A stretch of DNA of 10,122 nt. Origin: an uncultured Collinsella sp. GTDB lineage: Bacteria; Actinomycetota; Coriobacteriia; Coriobacteriales; Coriobacteriaceae. The stretch lies in assembly GCA_900556365.1 (NCBI GenBank), contig USOG01000040.1, positions 1 to 10,122 of the forward strand, given 5' to 3'. Below, piece after piece: positions 469 to 8,268 of the stretch. Made by a program: the position numbers and the translations under genes. The notes under the pieces were generated by a model. That model did no database searches and was not told the DNA's origin. It worked only from the letters and a program-made list of their open reading frames with translations. Each line of letters starts with the position of its first letter. The first letter of the stretch is position 1.

Positions 469-3246
469 ATGGCACAGGAATTCACTTTTACCGTTAACGG
501 CATCGAGCGCACGACGACCCAAAATAAACCGCTACTGCGCTACCTGCGCGACGACCTGCATATCCATTCCGCCAAGGACGGATGCTCCGAGGGCGCATGC
601 GGTACCTGCACCATCCACGTGGACGGTGCGGCCGTCAAGGCCTGCGTGCTGACCACCGCTCTTGCCGCCGGCCGCAACATCGTGACCGTCGAGGGCCTGC
701 CCGAGGACGTGCGCGAGGCCTTTGTGTACGCCTTTGGCGCCGTGGGCGCCGTACAGTGCGGCTTTTGTATCCCCGGTATGGTCATGGCGGGTGCAGCGCT
801 CATCGCCGAGGATCCCGAGCCTACCGAGGAGCAGATCAAGTACGCCATCCGCGGTAACGTCTGCCGCTGCACTGGCTACAAAAAGATTATCGAGGGCATT
901 TCGCTGGCCGCTGCGGTGCTCCGCGGCGAAAAGCAGATTGACGAGGGCTTGGAGCGCGGCGACGACTACGGCGTGGGCAAGCGCGCCTTCCGTATCGACG
1001 TGCGCAAGAAGGTGCTCGGCGAGGGCAAGTATCCCGACGACATTGACGAGCTCGATCAGCCGGGTCTGACCTATGCCAGCGCCGTGCGCTCCAAGTACCC
1101 GCGCGCCCGTGTGCTCTCCATCGATACTTCCAAGGCCGAGGCCCTGCCCGGCGTGGTGGGCATCCTGCGCGCCGAGGACGTGCCGGTCAACCAGGTCGGC
1201 CACCTTATCCAGGACTGGGACGTCATGATCGCCCAGGGCGATATCACCCGCTGCGTGGGTGACGCCATCGTGCTGGTGGTTGCCGAGGACGAGGCGACGC
1301 TCGAGAAAGCCAAGAAGCTCGTCAAGATTGATTACGAGCCTCTGGAGCCCGTGCGCAACATCGCCGAGGCCAGGGCTGCCGACGCCCCACGCCTGCACGA
1401 CAGCTTCTTTGCCTTTGGCAACACAGTGGAGCTCAAGGACAACGTGTGCCAGAGCCGTCACGTGACGCGCGGCGACGCCGCCAAGGCGCTGGCAGAAAGC
1501 GCGTTCACCGTGACGCAGCGCTTTACCACGCCCTTCACCGAGCATGCCTTCTTGGAGCCCGAGTGCGCCGTCGCCTTCCCGTACAAGAACGGCGTCAAGG
1601 TGCAGTCGACCGACCAGGGTGCCTACGACACGCGCAAAGAGTGCGCCCACATGTTTGGCTGGGACAACGAACCCGAGCGTGTGGTCGTCGAGACCATGCT
1701 CGTGGGTGGCGGCTTTGGCGGCAAGGAGGACGTGTCCATCCAGCACTTGGCCGCGCTTGCTGCCTATAAGTTCCAGCGTCCTGTGAAGTGTAAGCTCACG
1801 CGTGCCGAGTCGCTCGCGTTCCATCCCAAGCGTCACGCCATGGACGGCACCTTTACACTGGGCTGCGACGCCGGGGGCAACTTTACCGGCCTGGATTGCG
1901 AAATCAACTTCGATACCGGCGCCTACGCGTCGCTGTGCGGCCCGGTGCTCGAGCGCGCCTGTACGCATGCCGTCGGTCCCTACAAGTACCAGAATACCGA
2001 CATTCGCGGCTTTGGCTACTACACCAACAACCCGCCCGCCGGTGCGTACCGCGGCTTTGGCGTTTGCCAGTCCGAGTTTGCGCTCGAGAGCCTGATCGAC
2101 CTGCTGGCCGAGAAGGTCGGTCTGGATCCGTGGGAGATCCGCTACCGTAACGCCATCGAGCCGGGCGAGGTTCTGCCCAACGGCCAGATTGCCGACTGCT
2201 CCACGGCGCTTAAGGAGACGCTGCTCGAGGTCAAGGATGCCTACTACGCGCATCCCGGACACGCCGGCATTGCCTGCGCCATGAAGAACGCCGGCGTGGG
2301 CGTGGGCCTGCCCGATGCCGGCCGCTGCAAGATCCGCGTCGAGGATGGCCGCGCCGTGGTCTACGCCGCCACGTCCGACATCGGCCAGGGCTGCAACACC
2401 GTCTTTTTGCAGGACGTTGCCGAGGCATGCGGTCTGCCGCTTCGCTGCATCGCCAACGGCGAGTGCTCCACCGAGAATGCTCCCGACTCCGGCACCACGT
2501 CTGGTTCGCGTCAGACGGTCGTGACCGGCGAGGCCGTGCGCGGCGCCGCCTTCCTGCTGCGCGATGCCATGGTTGGCATCGAGGCCGGCAAGCCTGCGCC
2601 TACCGCCCCGGTGAGCGCGCATGGCGACGGCGTCAAGATCGAGTACGACGACGGTCGCGCCTATCAGCTGCACACGCAGGAGCTCGTCGCCGGCCAGGGC
2701 ATGCATCCTCAGGATCCCGCGGCAGCCATCAAGGCGCTCGAGGGATGCGAGTTTGGCTACGTGTACCTGGAGCCGACCGACAAGCTGGGTGCGGATGTTC
2801 CCAACCCCAAGAGCCACATCTGCTACGGCTTTGCCACGCATGTGGTTATTTTGGACGACGACGGCCGCGTGAGCGAGGTCTATGCCGCGCACGATTCCGG
2901 CAAGGTGATCAACCCCATCTCCATCCAGGGTCAGATCGAAGGCGGCGTGCTCATGGGTATGGGCTATGCGCTTACCGAGGACTGGCCGCTCAAGGACTGC
3001 GTGCCCCAGGCAAGGTACGGTACGCTCGGGCTGTTCCGTGCGCCCGAGATTCCGGATATCCACGCCATTTACGTGGAGAAGGACGAGCTGCTGCCCGTGG
3101 CATACGGCGGCAAGGGCATCGGCGAGATCGCAACGATTCCCACGGCGCCCGCCGTACAGAACGCCTACCGCGCGTTTGACGGCAAGCTGCGTCCAAATCT
3201 GCCCATGGTGGATACGCCCTACAGCCGCGTCCGCAACCGCGGGTAG
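469..3246 (+). CDS. Selenium-dependent xanthine dehydrogenase-like molybdenum hydroxylase (fused [2Fe-2S] and Mo domains)
   Basis: A 925-residue protein of the xanthine oxidase family. Residues 1-155 carry both [2Fe-2S] clusters: plant-type ferredoxin Cys39/44/47/59, and the helical-bundle cluster Cys97/100/132/134 (CGFC and CRC). The molybdopterin domain follows, with GGGFGGKE at 413-420 (Phe416 and Glu420 match active-site positions of bovine XDH), AYRGFG at 526-531 (Arg528) and the catalytic base Glu886 in GKGIGEIA. This order, lacking the FAD domain, and the SGTTSGSRQTVVTGEA segment match the family named selenium-dependent xanthine dehydrogenase; E. coli XdhD is of similar design and length. 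The expected reaction is hydroxylation of a purine or other N-heterocycle in the cytoplasm. Selenium in this family is a labile ligand of the Mo site, and no in-frame TGA is present, so selenocysteine is not involved. The start is fixed by AAGGGG at 457-462, six bases before ATG. The substrate is not certain from sequence. Confidence 0.9.
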   Translation: MAQEFTFTVNGIERTTTQNKPLLRYLRDDLHIHSAKDGCSEGACGTCTIHVDGAAVKACVLTTALAAGRNIVTVEGLPEDVREAFVYAFGAVGAVQCGFCIPGMVMAGAALIAEDPEPTEEQIKYAIRGNVCRCTGYKKIIEGISLAAAVLRGEKQIDEGLERGDDYGVGKRAFRIDVRKKVLGEGKYPDDIDELDQPGLTYASAVRSKYPRARVLSIDTSKAEALPGVVGILRAEDVPVNQVGHLIQDWDVMIAQGDITRCVGDAIVLVVAEDEATLEKAKKLVKIDYEPLEPVRNIAEARAADAPRLHDSFFAFGNTVELKDNVCQSRHVTRGDAAKALAESAFTVTQRFTTPFTEHAFLEPECAVAFPYKNGVKVQSTDQGAYDTRKECAHMFGWDNEPERVVVETMLVGGGFGGKEDVSIQHLAALAAYKFQRPVKCKLTRAESLAFHPKRHAMDGTFTLGCDAGGNFTGLDCEINFDTGAYASLCGPVLERACTHAVGPYKYQNTDIRGFGYYTNNPPAGAYRGFGVCQSEFALESLIDLLAEKVGLDPWEIRYRNAIEPGEVLPNGQIADCSTALKETLLEVKDAYYAHPGHAGIACAMKNAGVGVGLPDAGRCKIRVEDGRAVVYAATSDIGQGCNTVFLQDVAEACGLPLRCIANGECSTENAPDSGTTSGSRQTVVTGEAVRGAAFLLRDAMVGIEAGKPAPTAPVSAHGDGVKIEYDDGRAYQLHTQELVAGQGMHPQDPAAAIKALEGCEFGYVYLEPTDKLGADVPNPKSHICYGFATHVVILDDDGRVSEVYAAHDSGKVINPISIQGQIEGGVLMGMGYALTEDWPLKDCVPQARYGTLGLFRAPEIPDIHAIYVEKDELLPVAYGGKGIGEIATIPTAPAVQNAYRAFDGKLRPNLPMVDTPYSRVRNRG

Positions 3247-3315
3247 GGTAGGGCGCGGACGGCCATTGCTGACGAGCTGTTCGCGCTCAGCATCAACTAC
3301 ATACGCTGTGCCTTT

Positions 3316-3351
3316 GGCCCCGGCTCCATCGCGAGTCGGGGCCTTTTGTTT
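3316..3351 (+). terminator. Rho-independent terminator of the molybdenum hydroxylase operon
   Basis: An 11-bp stem (3316-3326 with 3333-3343, one G-U pair) closes a six-base loop and is followed by TTTTGTTT at 3344-3351. It lies 70 bases after the stop codon of the molybdenum hydroxylase. A weaker inverted repeat (TGCTGA and TCAGCA, 3267-3292) lies between the stop and this stem. Confidence 0.9.
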
Positions 3352-3368
3352 GGAGCGCCTCCGCATAC

Positions 3369-3754
3369 GGAAACTGCGTCCCGGATTTGGCGCTCAGAAT
3401 GGGATGCGTTTTCCCTTTGGAGCCCTCGGCGGAAACTACGTCCCGGAATCCAGTCCCGGAGTGGGATGCGCTTTCCGGATCGGCCCTCAACCGGAAGCTG
3501 TGTCCCGGAATCAGGCCTCGGAGTGGGATGCGCTTTCCGGAACGGTCCTCAACCGGAAACTGTGTCCCAGAATCGACACTCGGAGCGGGATATGCTTTCC
3601 GGAACGGCCTTCAAGCGGAAATGGCATCCCATTCTGAGCCTTCATTCCGGGACGCGGTTTCCGCTAGGCATGCCATCTGGAAAGCGCATCCCGTTTTGAG
3701 CACTCAGCCTGGGACATGGTTTCCGCGGGTGCTGCCAACCGGAATGTGTGTCCC
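3369..3754. repeat. Palindrome array 1: six and a half units, exact 62-bp period
   Basis: Left arms resembling GGAAACTGTGTCCC start at 3369, 3431, 3493, 3555, 3617, 3679 and 3741, exactly 62 bases apart. Inverted right arms resembling GGGATGCGCTTTCC start at 3401, 3463, 3525, 3587, 3649 and 3711, always 32 bases after the left arm. The seventh copy is a left arm only. Arms within a unit can pair with one or two mismatches or wobbles around an 18-base loop; the space between units is 16 bases. Loops are also conserved (roughly CGGAATC, four variable bases, CTCGGAGT). Units 5 and 6 fit the consensus only when read as reverse complement, yet stay in phase. The array fills the space between two convergent genes. 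All three plus frames are largely open here, but 62 is not a multiple of three, so I read it as non-coding. Confidence 0.92.
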
Positions 3755-3790
3755 AGTTTGGCAGGCAGGCGGGCATAAGCTCAGCAGCCC

Positions 3791-4789
3791 CTACAGCTCC
3801 ACGTCGTTGAGCCATGTCGGCAGCGCGGTCTGCCGGATGCCTGCCGTCTGCAGCTTTTTCGCGAGCATGCCTGCCGAACGGACTTCGTTCATGGTAAAGC
3901 GGATGAGAGGATGGCCGTAGAGCGATAGGTGTGCCTCGCGCTGGCGCTCGGCAACGAGCGTCTGGGCCGTAGTGCGTCCCGCAAGCATGGCCTGGTCGGT
4001 ATATTTGACAAGCCCGTCGAGTTCGCCCAGTGTGAGCTCCCTGGCTTGACGTTCCCAGGCAAAATCCGTTCGCATGGTCTCGGTCGAATCGAAGGGGTCC
4101 GTCAGCTCATACTGGAGCTGATCGGGCGCAAAACCGGTCTCGATCATGATGGCTCGGGCGACCGATTCCCCGCCGCTCTCGGCGCGGGCGTCGGCATATC
4201 GAAGTGTCGTGAGGGCGGTGCGAATCGTGCGACCATTGCGGGCGGTCGCTCGTTGCTCGACGGCCTCCATCAGCTGTTCCCGCGCAAGGCCGTGCTTTGA
4301 GATCGCCGAATCGGCAATGGGCATACCATCGGCAAAACCAGTTTGCAGCAGACAATCTGTGACCGTTTGGATAGGCGGCGTTATCGATATGCCGGCTCTG
4401 TGTATTGCTCCGGCCGGCTCAATCTGGTGCCGCTGAATATGTGCGCCCGGGCGAGCCGACGGCTTTGTCGAGCTGCAGACATGCACGACATTCAGGTGCC
4501 GCCACGAGACCTCGAGCCCCAGCAGACAGGCGGCCGAAAACGAGCAGAACGTCCAATCGGGGTGGATGATCGCAAGGGCGCGGAGGATCTCGCAATGGCG
4601 TTGCGCTCGGTTGAGTTCATCCCAGCGCGTTTTTCGCGCAAACAACCCCGGCATGGGCGAGACAACCGTGCCACCGGTGCGCCGAAGGAGCGCTTTTCGG
4701 ATCGCCGTGCTCGGGGGAATCAGACAGCGCCCCTCTTGTTCGGCTTGAGTGAGCAGTTGGTCGATGAGCTGGTCATTGCAATGGGTCAT
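3791..4789 (-). CDS. AbiEi/DUF559-like protein with a PD-(D/E)XK-like C-terminal region
   Basis: A 332-residue protein on the minus strand. Start ATG (complement of 4787-4789) is preceded by AAGGAGG (complement of 4799-4805) at nine bases, a strong site. Residues 20-105 look like the AbiEi-antitoxin-type layout common in Actinobacteria: a short helical region, a 'GLFARKTRW' turn, then HPDWTFCSFSAACLLGL. The C-terminal part contains ESGGES (204-209), TDFAW (241-245) and GELDGLVKY (255-263), the usual acidic and lysine positions of DUF559/Vsr-like nuclease folds. Proteins of this type are often annotated as AbiEi-family antitoxins or DUF559 proteins, and a phage-defence or DNA-related role is possible, but no AbiEii toxin partner is beside it. 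It is a single-gene unit with palindrome array 1 on its 3' side and array 2 on its 5' side. Function is unproven; family placement rests on motif reading alone. Confidence 0.82.
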   Translation of the reverse strand: MTHCNDQLIDQLLTQAEQEGRCLIPPSTAIRKALLRRTGGTVVSPMPGLFARKTRWDELNRAQRHCEILRALAIIHPDWTFCSFSAACLLGLEVSWRHLNVVHVCSSTKPSARPGAHIQRHQIEPAGAIHRAGISITPPIQTVTDCLLQTGFADGMPIADSAISKHGLAREQLMEAVEQRATARNGRTIRTALTTLRYADARAESGGESVARAIMIETGFAPDQLQYELTDPFDSTETMRTDFAWERQARELTLGELDGLVKYTDQAMLAGRTTAQTLVAERQREAHLSLYGHPLIRFTMNEVRSAGMLAKKLQTAGIRQTALPTWLNDVEL

Positions 4790-5084
4790 GAGCTACCGCC
4801 TCCTTTTAGGTAGCAAAAACGTATCAGCTGGAACTTGCCGCTCAACTGACCAAAAGCTGACCAAAATCTAACCATGCAGGTAGATGGCCTGTTTTCGGCG
4901 ACATCTTTACATCCGAATCGGTGGGCGGTAATCGGCGACCGTGAACGGTAGCTGGATATGAAGTCTTGGTAAGTTTCGGGACGTGTACTTTTTGAAAAAG
5001 AGCATTCTATCTGCTGTTTTGTGTTTCTGGATCGCATATTTGAAGGCATGTGATAAGGCCGGCGGACTGTCGCCTTGTATCTGC
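4790..5084. other. Intergenic region upstream of the AbiEi-like gene; short direct repeat only
   Basis: No convincing gene is present. The stretch is more AT-rich than its surroundings. CTGACCAAAA occurs twice, at 4846-4855 and 4857-4866, 11 bases (one helical turn) apart, 57 bases upstream of the minus-strand start, which would suit an operator. I found no clear -35/-10 pair for the minus-strand gene. Short open frames here lack ribosome binding sites and coding character. Confidence 0.5.
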
Positions 5085-5377
5085 GGAAACTGTGACCCGG
5101 AATTGCCGCTCGGAATGGGACGCACTTTCCGGAACAGCCCTCAACCGGAAACTGTGTCCCAGATTTCGGCCTCAGAGTGGGATGCCGTTTCCAGATCGAG
5201 CCTCAAACGGAAATTGCATCCCGGAACGAGCCCTCAGGGCGGGATGAGCTTTCCCAACGGGCCGCATGCGGAAACTGTGTCCTGGAATTGCCACTCAGAA
5301 CGGGACGCGCTTTCCGGATGGCATGCTTGGCGGAAACTACGGCCCAGTTTTTGGCTCCAGAACGGGATGCATTTTCC
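5085..5377. repeat. Palindrome array 2: five units of the same family
   Basis: Left arms start at 5085, 5147, 5209, 5270 and 5332, and the inverted right arms at 5117, 5179, 5241, 5302 and 5364, again 32 bases after each left arm. The period is 62 except for one 61-bp step (5209 to 5270), where the inter-unit space lost one base. All five units have the same orientation as units 1-4 of array 1. The array ends 55 bases before the inverted repeat that precedes the ATPase gene. Unit 2 shares 27 identical bases (5156-5182) with array 3 (6955-6981). Confidence 0.92.
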
Positions 5378-5424
5378 GGAACGGTCCACGTGCGGTGGTG
5401 TACCGCCCCTTTCGTGTGCGCCGC

Positions 5425-5495
5425 TTGTCGAATTACGTTATAGCTAGCTATATTATAGGAAGGTATAATATAGCTAGCTATAACGTAAAGGAAGG
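5425..5495 (+). promoter_or_regulatory. Perfect 24-bp inverted repeat with nested palindromes, overlapping the ATPase promoter and RBS
   Basis: Arms 5433-5456 and 5465-5488 are perfect inverted copies around an eight-base loop, AGGAAGGT (5457-5464). Each arm contains the self-complementary 14-mer TATAGCTAGCTATA (5439-5452 and 5469-5482), so two identical dyads sit 30 bp apart, close to three helical turns. Possible promoters are TTGTCG (5425-5430) with an 18-base space to TATATT (5449-5454), or the consensus -10 TATAAT at 5464-5469 without a good -35. The RBS AGGAAGG (5489-5495) abuts the right arm, and its exact copy sits in the loop. The layout suggests an operator for a dimeric repressor, possibly self-control by the downstream protein; a translation-blocking RNA hairpin is the alternative. 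Confidence 0.8.
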
Positions 5496-5502
5496 ATGGT
5501 CT

Positions 5503-6894
5503 ATGTTTGTCGGAAGAACAGCGGAAATGTCCGAGCTCAATCGACTGTATGGCACGGACTCCTTTGAGATGCCTGTGATTTACGGCCGCCGTCGTGTGGG
5601 TAAAACGCGCCTTATCACAGAGTTCATCCAAGGCAAGAAGGCTATTTACTTTCAAGCTCGTCGTACCAATGCGGAGGCAAACCTGCACGGCTTTAGCCAG
5701 GCGATACTTGCAGGCTCGGTTGGTGCTGCAGGCGTGTCGTTTCGTAGTTTTGACGAAGCGTTCGATGCATTGGCCACCATGGCTCGAACGGAGCGTTTGA
5801 TTGTCGTGATTGACGAGTATCCCTATCTCGCCCAATCGAATCCCGAAATCAGCTCGTTGCTGCAAGACAAGATCGATCACCTGTACAAAGAGACAAGGCT
5901 CATGCTGATTCTATGCGGCTCGTCTCTTTCGTTTATGGAGGAACAGGTGTTGGGCTATGAGAGCCCACTATACGGTAGGCGTACGGCCCAGTTTAAGATC
6001 ATGCCGCTCGATTTTACGACGACCCTCGGCCTGTGGCATAGCATGGGTCGCGAAGACGCTGCGGTTTGCTATGGCATGACGGGCGGCATTCCTGCATATA
6101 TCGAGAAAGTCGATCCTGCCGTATCGCTCAAGGACAACATCAAACGTCTTTTTCTTACTCCTACGGGCTATCTCTTTGAGGAGCCGAGTAACCTGCTGTT
6201 GCAAGAGTGCCGCAATCCCGAGCAATATGATGCGATCGTGCAAGCAATTGCTCAGGGGCGCTCGAGGATCTCGGAGATTGCGAGCTCTACGGGAATCCCT
6301 GCGAGCAACGTAAAGAGCTATGTGGATAAGCTGGCGTCGCTTGGGATTGTCGAGCGCGAGCTGCCCCTAAACGAGACGAGCAATAAGCGAGCCGTGTATC
6401 TGCTGAGCGACCAGATGTTTAGGTTCTGGTACAAGTTTGTGCCGCAGAACATTGGGCTGATTCAAAACGATATGGCCGAGATGGCGTATAAGCGCATTGA
6501 GCCGCATGTATCGGATTACATGGGTACGGTCTTTGAGCTTATATGCAGACAATACGTGTACGAACTCGCGCGCGCGGGCCAGCTCGATGTGGTTCCGGCA
6601 AGCGTTGGGCGCTGGTGGGGGACGGATAATCGCACGCATACGCAGGAAGAAATCGACTTGATCGTTGACGATGGCGAGGGCGCTGCGCTGTTTGCGGAGT
6701 GCAAATGGCGCAATGAACCGGTGGACGAAGACGTACTGCAAAAGCTCGTGCACCGAAGCGAGCTCTTTAGACGGCAGCATAAAAGCTACGTGATCTTCTC
6801 GAAGCGTGGCTTTACGCAAGGATGTCAGGAAGCTGCGGCGAGCAGGGGAGATGCCAAGCTGATTTCGTTTGCCGAGATGTGCGAGCGGAGATAA
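5503..6894 (+). CDS. AAA-type ATPase with C-terminal DUF234 (PD-(D/E)XK nuclease-like) domain
   Basis: A 463-residue protein of the archaeal-type ATPase family (ATPase_2 plus DUF234). Residues 3-200 form the ATPase: Walker A YGRRRVGKT (27-35), Walker B LIVVIDEY with Asp104-Glu105, the CGSS sensor (138-141) and LYGRR (156-160), a likely arginine-finger region. Residues 243-290 look like a winged helix (ISEIASSTGIPASNVKSYVDKL). The C-terminal domain has Glu345, Asp385 (EEIDLIV) and Glu399-Cys-Lys401 (AECKW), the D...ExK signature of the nuclease fold. Such proteins are common and often solitary in anaerobes; their role is unknown, with DNA binding or defence suggested. I chose ATG 5503, seven bases after AGGAAGG; the frame is open further upstream to 5266 but that part is palindrome array and the inverted repeat. 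Third-position GC is lower than in the flanking metabolic genes, consistent with transfer. Arrays of one repeat family lie on both sides. Confidence 0.9.
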   Translation: MFVGRTAEMSELNRLYGTDSFEMPVIYGRRRVGKTRLITEFIQGKKAIYFQARRTNAEANLHGFSQAILAGSVGAAGVSFRSFDEAFDALATMARTERLIVVIDEYPYLAQSNPEISSLLQDKIDHLYKETRLMLILCGSSLSFMEEQVLGYESPLYGRRTAQFKIMPLDFTTTLGLWHSMGREDAAVCYGMTGGIPAYIEKVDPAVSLKDNIKRLFLTPTGYLFEEPSNLLLQECRNPEQYDAIVQAIAQGRSRISEIASSTGIPASNVKSYVDKLASLGIVERELPLNETSNKRAVYLLSDQMFRFWYKFVPQNIGLIQNDMAEMAYKRIEPHVSDYMGTVFELICRQYVYELARAGQLDVVPASVGRWWGTDNRTHTQEEIDLIVDDGEGAALFAECKWRNEPVDEDVLQKLVHRSELFRRQHKSYVIFSKRGFTQGCQEAAASRGDAKLISFAEMCERR

Positions 6895-6923
6895 CCAAGC
6901 GCGCTCTGATGTGATGCTCGGAA

Positions 6924-7021
6924 TGGGACGCGCTTTCCCTTTGGCGGAAAGCGCGTCCCAGATTTCGGCCTCAGAGTGGGACGCATTTTCCGGTAGAGGC
7001 CTGGAGCGGAAAGCACGTCCC
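6924..7021. repeat. Palindrome array 3: one perfect hairpin plus one unit and a half
   Basis: A right arm (6925-6938) meets a left arm (6946-6959) over only seven bases, giving a perfect 14-bp stem, or 15 bp with T6924-A6960. The left arm continues into a normal unit (right arm at 6978-6991, offset 32), and another left arm starts at 7008, 62 after 6946. The array starts 30 bases after the ATPase stop, so the perfect hairpin could also act as a 3' end-forming or mRNA-protecting structure, although no T-run follows it. Confidence 0.88.
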
Positions 7022-7951: not shown

Positions 7952-7963
7952 ACGGACTCCTTT

Positions 7964-8140
7964 CATCGATGTTGGCAGGGCCACCGTGCCTCTTGGCCGG
8001 TTGGCGTCGGGATCGTGGAGCCAACTCTCTACCCCGACTCTGGATAAAACGCGCCCGCTCCTTGCGGGCACGATGGGGTCTATCAACGTGTACGGACAGA
8101 AATCAAGCGCCATCCGCGAAATGACGCGCGGATGGCGCTG
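7964..8140 (-). promoter_or_regulatory. Structured 5' leader with possible pseudoknot, candidate cis-regulatory RNA
   Basis: Read on the minus strand, the leader holds in order: a perfect 13-bp hairpin (8127-8139 with 8106-8118), a terminator-like stem (8041-8072), then arm A1 (8031-8038), B1 GTTGGC (8020-8025), A2 (8006-8013) and B2 GCCAAC (8000-8005). A1 pairs with A2 over eight pairs including one G-U; B1 pairs with B2 over six. The order A1-B1-A2-B2 with no base between A2 and B2 is that of an H-type pseudoknot with stacked stems. A second GCCAAC (complement of 7971-7976) lies just before the RBS and could compete for B1. The wobble pairs here and in the terminator are A-C mismatches on the plus strand, supporting minus-strand transcription. 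I do not recognise a known riboswitch class. Confidence 0.5.
8041..8072 (-). terminator. Intrinsic terminator or attenuator in the leader of the hypothetical gene
   Basis: On the minus strand a nine-pair stem (8064-8072 with 8050-8058, one U-G pair) around the loop AAGGA is followed by TTTTATCC (complement of 8042-8049). It points toward the hypothetical gene and lies 90 bases before its start, so it is either an attenuator in its leader or the terminator of a gene that has been lost upstream. Confidence 0.7.
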
Positions 8141-8169: not shown

Positions 8170-8268
8170 CGGAAAAGTGTCGAAATCAGCCGTGTAAAAG
8201 TACGGAAAAGTGTCGAGATAGGCACCTTAAAACTACGGAAAAGTGTGGCTGGATGACAAAACAGCACT
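8170..8268. repeat. 33-bp tandem repeat, three copies of CGGAAAAGTGT
   Basis: CGGAAAAGTGT occurs at 8170-8180, 8203-8213 and 8236-8246, exactly 33 bases apart. Units 1 and 2 agree at 25 of 33 positions, ending in TAAAAGTA and TAAAACTA; the third keeps only the first 11 bases. It lies between the structured leader and the end of the membrane-protein gene. No gene is present here. The spacing of about three helical turns fits a protein-binding array or a leftover mobile or cassette boundary. Confidence 0.75.

Follow-up and report, generated by a model that had tools for sequence, protein, structure and literature searches.

Phased arrays of an inverted 14-bp arm in the Collinsella aerofaciens group as candidate sites for a DNA-binding protein

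What maintains a short sequence that recurs in alternating orientation, at nearly fixed spacing, between the genes of a gut bacterium? The question is raised by a contig of an uncultured Collinsella sp., of which the whole stretch analysed (10,122 nucleotides, hereafter the window) contains three such arrays. A search of the window allowing up to one mismatch to GGAAANNNNNTCCC found 27 arms of the form GGAAA-N5-TCCC, all of them within the three arrays, alternating in orientation and mostly stepping by 32 and 30 bp; 200 dinucleotide shuffles gave a mean of 2.05 and a maximum of 6. This bears out the sequence-only reading from which the work started, in which an inverted 14-mer alternates in three arrays. 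Single mismatches are confined to the plus strand, where five of 14 arms have one; the 13 minus-strand arms have none. The arrays and their neighbouring genes are as follows.

Ending at 3246: xdh-like gene, convergent with the AbiEi-like gene
3369–3754, no strand: array 1, between the two convergent genes; 13 arms, making six complete 46-bp units and one arm; 12 of 12 steps 32 or 30 bp
3369–3414, no strand: xdh-side unit, one 46-bp unit of arm, 18-bp loop and inverted arm
3791–4789, minus strand: AbiEi-like gene, 332 aa, between arrays 1 and 2; PADLOC AbiEi, E=3.4e-4
5085–5377, no strand: array 2, between the divergent AbiEi-like and ATPase genes; 10 arms, making five units; one 29-bp step (5241 to 5270), the other eight 32 or 30 bp
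5332–5377, no strand: ATPase-side unit, the last of array 2, kept across cassette states
5503–6894, plus strand: ATPase_2 + DUF234 gene, between arrays 2 and 3; PADLOC candidate PDC-S27
6925–7021, no strand: array 3; four arms, making one complete 46-bp unit (6946–6991) with one arm on each side

The period had been described as exact in array 1 and as exact in array 2 save for a single one-base step, and both descriptions hold. The 32/30 rhythm does not extend to the whole of array 3, where the steps are 21, 32 and 30 bp and the first, unmentioned in the earlier description, is off register. Between its units at 3555 and 3617, array 1 reverses the inner orientation of the unit and stays in phase. 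The mean arm step of 31 bp corresponds, by simple arithmetic, to about three helical turns. An Rfam scan returned nothing at gathering score within the arrays, where three weak animal-miRNA matches below threshold were the only hits. The sole match at gathering score in the window is a SAM riboswitch at 7960–8050.

Comparison across genomes defines the element more closely. The arm follows the 14-bp pattern GGAAA-N-Y-R-Y-R-TCCC, and two inverted arms, with starts 32 bp apart and an 18-bp loop between them, make up a basic unit of 46 bp; units are chained through a linker of 15 or 16 bp. Steps between neighbouring arms less than 200 bp apart were 32 bp in 403 cases from plus to minus, and 30 bp (293) or 29 bp (38) from minus to plus, the loop side showing 403 steps of 32 bp vs five of 31 bp, in counts taken over overlapping loci that were not de-duplicated. 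The loops and inter-unit segments had been called conserved, and a consensus does exist for both (about GNWWGRGGCCYCWWNC for the linker, which has no T run), but they are not copies: with reverse complements merged, the 46-mers still comprise 288 distinct sequences, and the 16-bp linkers 152. The two arms of a unit are conserved to a similar degree, dyad symmetry of the consensus arm GGAAANYRYRTCCC is only partial, and 64 of 150 arrays have an odd number of arms.

Of 153 genera of the class, a single one carries the family. Within it, 22 of 43 Collinsella genomes, corresponding to the C. aerofaciens group, are carriers, and the exact unit is absent from 356 class genomes outside Collinsella. 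The linker-side pattern was likewise present in 3/3 carriers and absent from 20/20 non-carriers. A Christensenellaceae match (L096, among the 80 matches listed) lies inside a coding region and was rejected as a chance match. Three counted genomes carry 27–41 copies each, given as units (as arms, the numbers about double). At two mismatches or fewer, there are 41 units in G024 (28, 12 and 1 with zero, one and two mismatches) and 27 in G040 (14, 9 and 4), so that decayed copies are a minority in both; in G001, 38 matches at three mismatches or fewer include a few false ones, the reversed control giving one. The 62-bp period is no peculiarity of the source genome, being found in many others of the group. 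A phage origin was set aside, as no viral contig held the exact unit and array 2 had no phage match, and so was a plasmid origin, array 1's one "plasmid" record match being an 899,693-base C. aerofaciens molecule. The accessible literature on Collinsella and Coriobacteria repeats or phased arrays, in which subscription journals are barely covered, yielded nothing on these repeats.

Copies that stay in place show constraint. At 20 orthologous loci, arm positions 1–4 and 12–14 differed in only 0.6–2.6% of comparisons, as against 17–27% for arm positions 6–10, 15% for loops, 17% for linkers and 12.6% for the flank within 40 bp, and a second analysis of divergence at orthologous loci agreed with the first. 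Changes at arm position 10 are nearly all transitions, A<->G or C<->T (0.175 vs 0.002 for transversions), and the first loop base behaves in the same way (0.168 vs 0.002). Length is also constrained. Indels per bp amounted to 0.0004 in the loop, 0.0001 in the arm, 0.0043 in the linker and 0.0036 in the flank within 60 bp, and relative to the near flank, small indels are thus reduced about ninefold in the 18-bp loop and not at all in the linker. The suggestion that spacing is selected therefore stands for the loop and not for the linker, "strict phasing" of the whole array was an overstatement, and the idea of a continuous protein polymer is weakened. The middle arm positions are more divergent than the flank (0.21 vs 0.13), so some of the compared units are probably paralogous. 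In three of the 20 loci, the core was not below loop-side divergence (0.018 vs 0.013, 0.024 vs 0, 0 vs 0), and in two small loci core divergence was near 0.3.

A lone unit beside thiE agrees with this core constraint. Over 17 genomes, pi was 0.024 in the core, 0.130 in the loop, 0.184 in the spacer to thiE and 0.135 at thiE third codon positions, with the middle arm positions also low at 0.043; the comparison left out L172 (not found), L180 (truncated arm), L181 (one-base shift) and L184 (inverted loop). The thiE locus ranges from one to at least six units. Of 21 genomes, 13 have nothing there beyond the lone unit, which means that not every site requires an array.

The arrays also favour a particular location. 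Convergent junctions account for 21 of 46 loci (the chance locus L096 included) compared with 35 of 151 gene pairs in a control sample from G001, restricted to gaps of at least 50 bp (p=0.005); the excess depends on a simple gene caller. Of 150 arrays, 148 extend at least partly outside any called frame; the two that do not are L081 and L096, the latter being the chance match. At least six more overlap a called frame by 10–111 bp; the overlap in the window arises from an upstream extension of the ATPase frame. No gene common to the array loci was seen at these loci.

Taken with the pairing results given below, these observations lead us to favour, with modest confidence, the explanation that the arms are double-stranded sites for a sequence-specific DNA-binding protein and that their copy number drifts by unequal recombination. 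Each 14-bp arm would be one recognition site, and the 46-bp unit would form the basic two-site complex, its arm starts 32 bp, or about three turns, apart. Chaining through the looser 15–16-bp linker would then set successive arms some 31 bp apart, and the putative protein may fill an array cooperatively, forming a compact block at the 3′ ends of genes, chiefly those that converge, that could act as a roadblock or as a supercoiling or domain boundary. The similar conservation of both arms favours protein sites, since a reader of RNA or of a single strand would have no need of it. Homologous unequal exchange between units could change the number of arms, and could also delete or insert genes lying between two arrays. 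Growth by unequal crossing-over had been offered earlier as the alternative to selected spacing and is supported by arm numbers that vary between genomes at the thiE and xdh loci; both alternatives apply.

Several known repeat systems invite comparison. In a published account (PMC2817692), the BIMEs or REP elements of E. coli, Xanthomonas and others are regularly spaced extragenic elements of alternating orientation that occur singly, in pairs or in arrays, and BIMEs bind proteins, BIME-2 binding gyrase. The Collinsella arrays share the extragenic position, the regular spacing and the alternation. The earlier statement that no described family matches must accordingly be divided: the architecture is that of BIMEs, while palindromic arms and, at the loci inspected, association with a RAYT gene are lacking. 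BIMEs are also bound by gyrase, IHF or Pol I. The Collinsella arms are not palindromes and show no covariation when paired, number 27–41 units per counted genome where REPs usually exceed 100, and have a core and loop length constrained in place. CRISPR, which the sequence-only reading had excluded, shares only the regular period, as the Collinsella arms alternate and their spacers follow a consensus instead of being unique; no cas-like gene was found among the seven window ORFs scanned. In having tandem units at dispersed loci, with copy number differing between strains, the arrays behave as VNTRs do. Mycobacterial intercistronic VNTRs and MIRUs similarly consist of tandem units of tens of bp that are dispersed, intergenic and strain-variable, but MIRUs are direct repeats, whereas the Collinsella arrays have alternating inverted arms with a conserved, fixed core. 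The neisserial dRS3/NIME and pneumococcal BOX repeats, also intergenic, are mosaics that include short inverted elements and vary in inner copy number, a likeness of description; dRS3 is a phage attachment target, a role that is not among the features observed for the Collinsella arrays.

The BIME likeness raises the first rival explanation, namely that the arrays are selfish or passive repeats, their arms being ends recognised by a mobilising enzyme and tolerated at gene ends with no host function. Besides the shared architecture, the gene-end location and restriction to one species group would fit, and Y1-transposases (RAYT/IS200 type) match in 37 of 43 genus genomes, comprising 22/22 carriers and 15/21 non-carriers, the carriers in this comparison being one close group. 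Repeats of 4 bp at array edges are also commoner than in shuffled sequence (7 vs 2.6 over 46 arrays), as are 3–4-bp matches (17 vs about 9.8 over 46 edges, where inverted arms are present). Against this, none of 16 Y1_Tnp matches inspected (of 25, in eight carriers) is flanked by arms or has an arm pair nearby, on which a REP with its RAYT was also set aside, and none of the four Y1-transposase genes of G001 lies near an array. Duplications of at least 5 bp were found at none of the 46 array edges (0.5 expected); a MITE with a target duplication of that length is improbable, one with a 3–4-bp duplication still conceivable. Old inserted copies should moreover show decay of the core, which is mostly not seen. 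Altogether, selfish repeats seem a rather unlikely explanation. Several of the inspected Y1_Tnp loci show other hairpins.

In a second rival, the arrays are recombination platforms, their arms and phase being retained for the exchange of cassettes between strains. The xdh locus makes this conceivable. Over 19 related genomes it carries from 0 to 17 arms, 7–17 where the AbiEi-like gene lies next (10 of the 19) and 0–5 where it does not; the AbiEi-like protein matches no Pfam family at 0.001. The ATPase-side unit is kept in six of seven genomes that have the ATPase without the AbiEi-like gene there, with the loop AGTTTTTGGCTCCAGAAC in G001, G003, G010, G043 and G052 and one base off in G040; in these genomes the last arm starts 138–140 bp before the ATPase match, compared with 139 bp in the window. 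In G001, which lacks the AbiEi-like gene, a unit resembling the opening one of array 1 stands in register beside a unit resembling the final one of array 2, and the xdh-side loop of G001, GGATTTGGCGCTCAGAAC, differs from that of the window at only the last loop position. A second locus has a gene region between arrays that some genomes carry and others lack, with the outer units shared; in L026 the region forms a single 1374-aa frame, and in L090 two frames. However, ordinary homologous recombination between repeats would yield the same joins without selection for it, and anchor genes with more than one neighbour are in no clear excess across the array (15/27) over the other side (10/27), which is not convincing for arrays as general borders of gene turnover. 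Inversions of the loop are rare (4 of 328 same-locus matches), and inspection of 20 loci by eye showed the thiE unit inverted in place once; an invertible switch was rejected on these counts, and recombination platforms appear distinctly improbable.

A third rival, in which the inverted arms are transcribed and folded as terminators or RNA-stabilising stems, is still less probable. Inverted arms at gene 3′ ends would suit it, and five of 15 distinct lone units have perfectly complementary arms. Nevertheless, complementarity in these lone units is 12.60 with 12.60 after shuffling, and in 277 array units 11.25 of 14 vs 11.20 (sd 0.06). The six variable arm pairs show covariation z of –1.1 to 1.6, and G-T and A-C combinations are both close to chance. 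An excess at pair 11–36 (z 3.0) is matched at the corresponding arm position across the linker (z 3.2), and so reflects array-wide likeness. With no covariation between paired arms at their variable positions, a hairpin is unlikely, and an RNA hairpin or cruciform was set aside; the linker consensus, moreover, lacks a T run, and a stem that by eye resembles a terminator (about 3315–3352) already follows xdh ahead of array 1. Finally, gyrase or another general architectural protein bound to strong general sites, as with BIME-2, would suit convergent junctions, where positive supercoils gather, but is the least probable rival, a fixed core of about nine bases being unusually specific for gyrase and the arrays being absent from other Collinsella, which presumably must have gyrase too.

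The protein-site explanation can tentatively be taken further. A hitherto undescribed, lineage-specific chromosome-organising protein might occupy phased arrays at gene 3′ ends in the C. aerofaciens group, forming "insulator" blocks from a fixed two-site unit with arms 32 bp apart. Since two other sampled Collinsella species have different phased intergenic repeats, other species may use a repeat/protein pair of their own.

Bacterial intergenic repeats are often regarded as selfish or inert, and the fixed copies in Collinsella show constraint on both a core and one spacer length. Such constraint without detectable pairing makes the arrays directly testable as protein sites, for which one 46-bp probe suffices. 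Loci of variable arm number might be of use in strain typing, and the two cassette loci show how arrays allow the gain and loss of accessory genes, candidate defence genes included. Should a protein be found, the arrays would become a defined system in which to study boundary or roadblock elements, in a genus common in the human gut.

The three arrays that the sequence-only reading had described proved to be real. The 14-bp arm GGAAANNNNNTCCC, at up to one mismatch, occurs at 27 sites in the window, every one inside the arrays, against 2.05 expected from shuffled windows, and none of 200 shuffles reached 27. A 46-bp unit consists of an arm, an 18-bp loop and an inverted arm, and units are connected through a 15- or 16-bp linker. 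Five arms have one mismatch, all on the plus strand. The features of the locus and its surroundings are as follows.

Features of the window
xdh-like gene
3369-3754, array 1: 13 arms in alternating orientation, 32/30-bp steps
AbiEi-like gene: weak assignment (PADLOC E=3.4e-4; no Pfam family at 0.001)
5085-5377, array 2: 10 arms in alternating orientation, 32/30-bp steps with a single 29
5439-5483: TATAGCTAGCTATAA three times, immediately ahead of the ATPase gene; possibly an operator
ATPase_2/DUF234 gene: PADLOC candidate PDC-S27
6925-7021, array 3: 4 arms, steps of 21, 32 and 30
8170-8246: another short repeat, CGGAAAAGTGTCGA, 2.3 tandem copies at 33-bp spacing
DUF4143 remnant
SAM riboswitch

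The scan of Coriobacteriia that the same reading had suggested, run with the exact unit, was positive in 21 of 396 genomes (40 of them Collinsella) and in one of 153 genera. The exact unit was found in 13 of 39 relatives and in 22 of 43 Collinsella genomes; each carrier has 8 to 30 exact copies, and the other 21 genomes have none. In all 22 carriers, ThiE shares at least 97% identity with the query (a contig end truncates one of them), and the best non-carrier ThiE has 80% identity. Among the 80 matches listed from a scan of named genomes, which gave at least 120 stretches, 79 were Collinsella; the sole exception, a Christensenellaceae row, was a chance match inside a gene. Within one genome (G001), 11 loci are scattered, with a gap from 0.20 to 1.06 Mb. 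When up to two mismatches are allowed, the count is 41 units in G024 (28, 12 and 1 with 0, 1 and 2 mismatches, respectively) and 27 in G040 (14, 9 and 4), so decayed copies are a minority. The exact unit was not found in viral contigs, nor did array 2 match phages. The C. aerofaciens record NZ_OY725717.1, 899,693 bases long and described as "plasmid 6", is probably a piece of chromosome, as it carries smpB and murQ and equals contig C6 of genome G008 in length.

With genes called by our own simple script, 148 of 150 arrays in the fetched, partly overlapping loci were not entirely within a called frame; six or more of these share 10-111 bp with such a frame. Among 46 distinct gene-pair loci (one being the chance match), 21 were convergent, 19 tandem and 6 divergent, versus 35, 90 and 26 of 151 background pairs with gaps of at least 50 bp sampled from G001 (convergent, p=0.005; divergent, p=0.65). 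Arrays between tandem genes lie closer to the upstream stop in 13 of 19 cases. In a publicly annotated example, hypothetical and arsenate reductase family genes converge on an array in an unannotated gap.

Constraint was assessed in pairwise alignments of 20 orthologous intergenic loci, in which arms were chosen by motif likeness in one sequence and scored in its partner. The share of comparisons that differed was 0.6-2.6% for arm positions 1-4 and 12-14, 5.4% for position 5, 9.6% for position 11 and 17-27% for positions 6-10, versus 15% for loops, 17% for linkers, 12.6% for flanks within 40 bp and 8% for the mostly coding flanks at 40-400 bp. Nearly all changes at position 10 of the arm and at the first base of the loop are transitions (0.175 and 0.168 versus 0.002), so a purine seems to be required at both. 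Short indels per bp numbered 0.0001 in arms, 0.0004 in loops, 0.0043 in linkers, and 0.0036 and 0.0024 in flanks within 60 bp and farther out. Core divergence was below loop-side divergence in 17 of the 20 loci, the other three having barely diverged (core versus loop side, 0.018 versus 0.013, 0.024 versus 0, and 0 versus 0); at two small loci, a core divergence of about 0.3 probably reflects wrong alignment. Because arrays contain paralogous units, the thiE-side unit was retested in 17 of 21 genomes, giving a pi of 0.024 for the core, 0.043 for the arm middle and 0.130 for the loop, versus 0.184 for the spacer and 0.135 for thiE third codon positions. Fixed copies are thus conserved in situ, which is not what a purely selfish repeat would predict.

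Copy number changes between genomes. At the thiE locus, counted in 21 genomes (in the twenty-second carrier a contig end interrupts it), 13 have one unit and six have two or more, reaching at least six; the thiE-side unit is broken in two, and every genome keeps at least one arm. By eye, the loop of the thiE unit in G044 (L184) is inverted in place relative to other genomes. The xdh gene occurs in 19 of 22 carriers. In 10 of these, an array of 7 to 17 arms separates it from the AbiEi-like gene; in seven, the ATPase gene comes next, with 0, 2 or 4 arms in between; and in two, neither gene appears within the 1.5 kb fetched. The zero-arm case, G005, still has a decayed unit. G001, which lacks the AbiEi-like gene, has two units 62 bp apart, one resembling the xdh-side unit of array 1 and the other the ATPase-side unit of array 2; its last arm starts 140 bp ahead of the ATPase match (139 in the window). 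In G010, G040 and G052, a unit resembling the first of array 2 is joined to its ATPase-side last unit. At a second locus, two stretches lacking a gene region (L006, L084) have outer loops AGAATTCACGTCCGGAGT and, at the opposite end, ATTCCAAAGGCAAATTCC; where the region lies between two arrays (L090), these units open one array and close the other. In-register homologous exchange would explain the joins and cassette states at both loci, whether by gain or by loss.

The units give no indication of a hairpin. Among 266 distinct, oriented units, variable paired-arm positions (6-41, 7-40, 8-39, 9-38, 10-37 and 15-32) were independent (z -1.1 to 1.6). For pair 11-36 z was 3.0; since comparing that arm position across the linker gave 3.2, this signal reflects likeness within arrays. 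Total arm complementarity equalled that of shuffled arms. Both arms of a unit are similarly conserved, so they are most likely read by a double-stranded-DNA binder, although the plus-strand-only mismatches in the window are a counterpoint.

Among known kinds, BIMEs (PMC2817692) are closest in architecture, but the Collinsella arms are not palindromic, none of the genes inspected shows a RAYT association, and the copy number is lower. The main text of PMC3733652 contains neither Collinsella nor Coriobacter. A link to a Y1 transposase retains a small chance, with matches in all 22 carriers but also in 15 of 21 non-carriers. Five Collinsella Y1-transposase stretches (L154, L160, L161, L163, L164) also have diverse hairpins, such as AACCTGCC...GGCAGGTT and TGGGAAAAT...ATTTTCCCA, and may be true RAYT/REP pairs of the genus. 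Some non-carrier species have other repeats. G049, a genome with no Y1-transposase match, has a dispersed element of two direct copies of approximately TGACARAAASGGGCAATYTGGCARTAAA at 31 bp; of 20 sampled stretches of 20 kb each, five contain it (L221, L222, L232, L235, L237). G055 has runs of direct repeats resembling ACTCGRTGCACYT at about 19-bp spacing (L202, 18950-19110; L208, 17000-17260 and 18900-19080), and G045 has a CRISPR-like array whose repeat is about 36 bases long (L252, 5893-6193).

We favour the reading of the arrays as phased double-stranded sites for a putative protein. The basic element would be the two-arm unit with its constant 18-bp gap, chained via a looser linker, and we propose that at gene ends such arrays may serve as a roadblock, in supercoiling or as a domain boundary.
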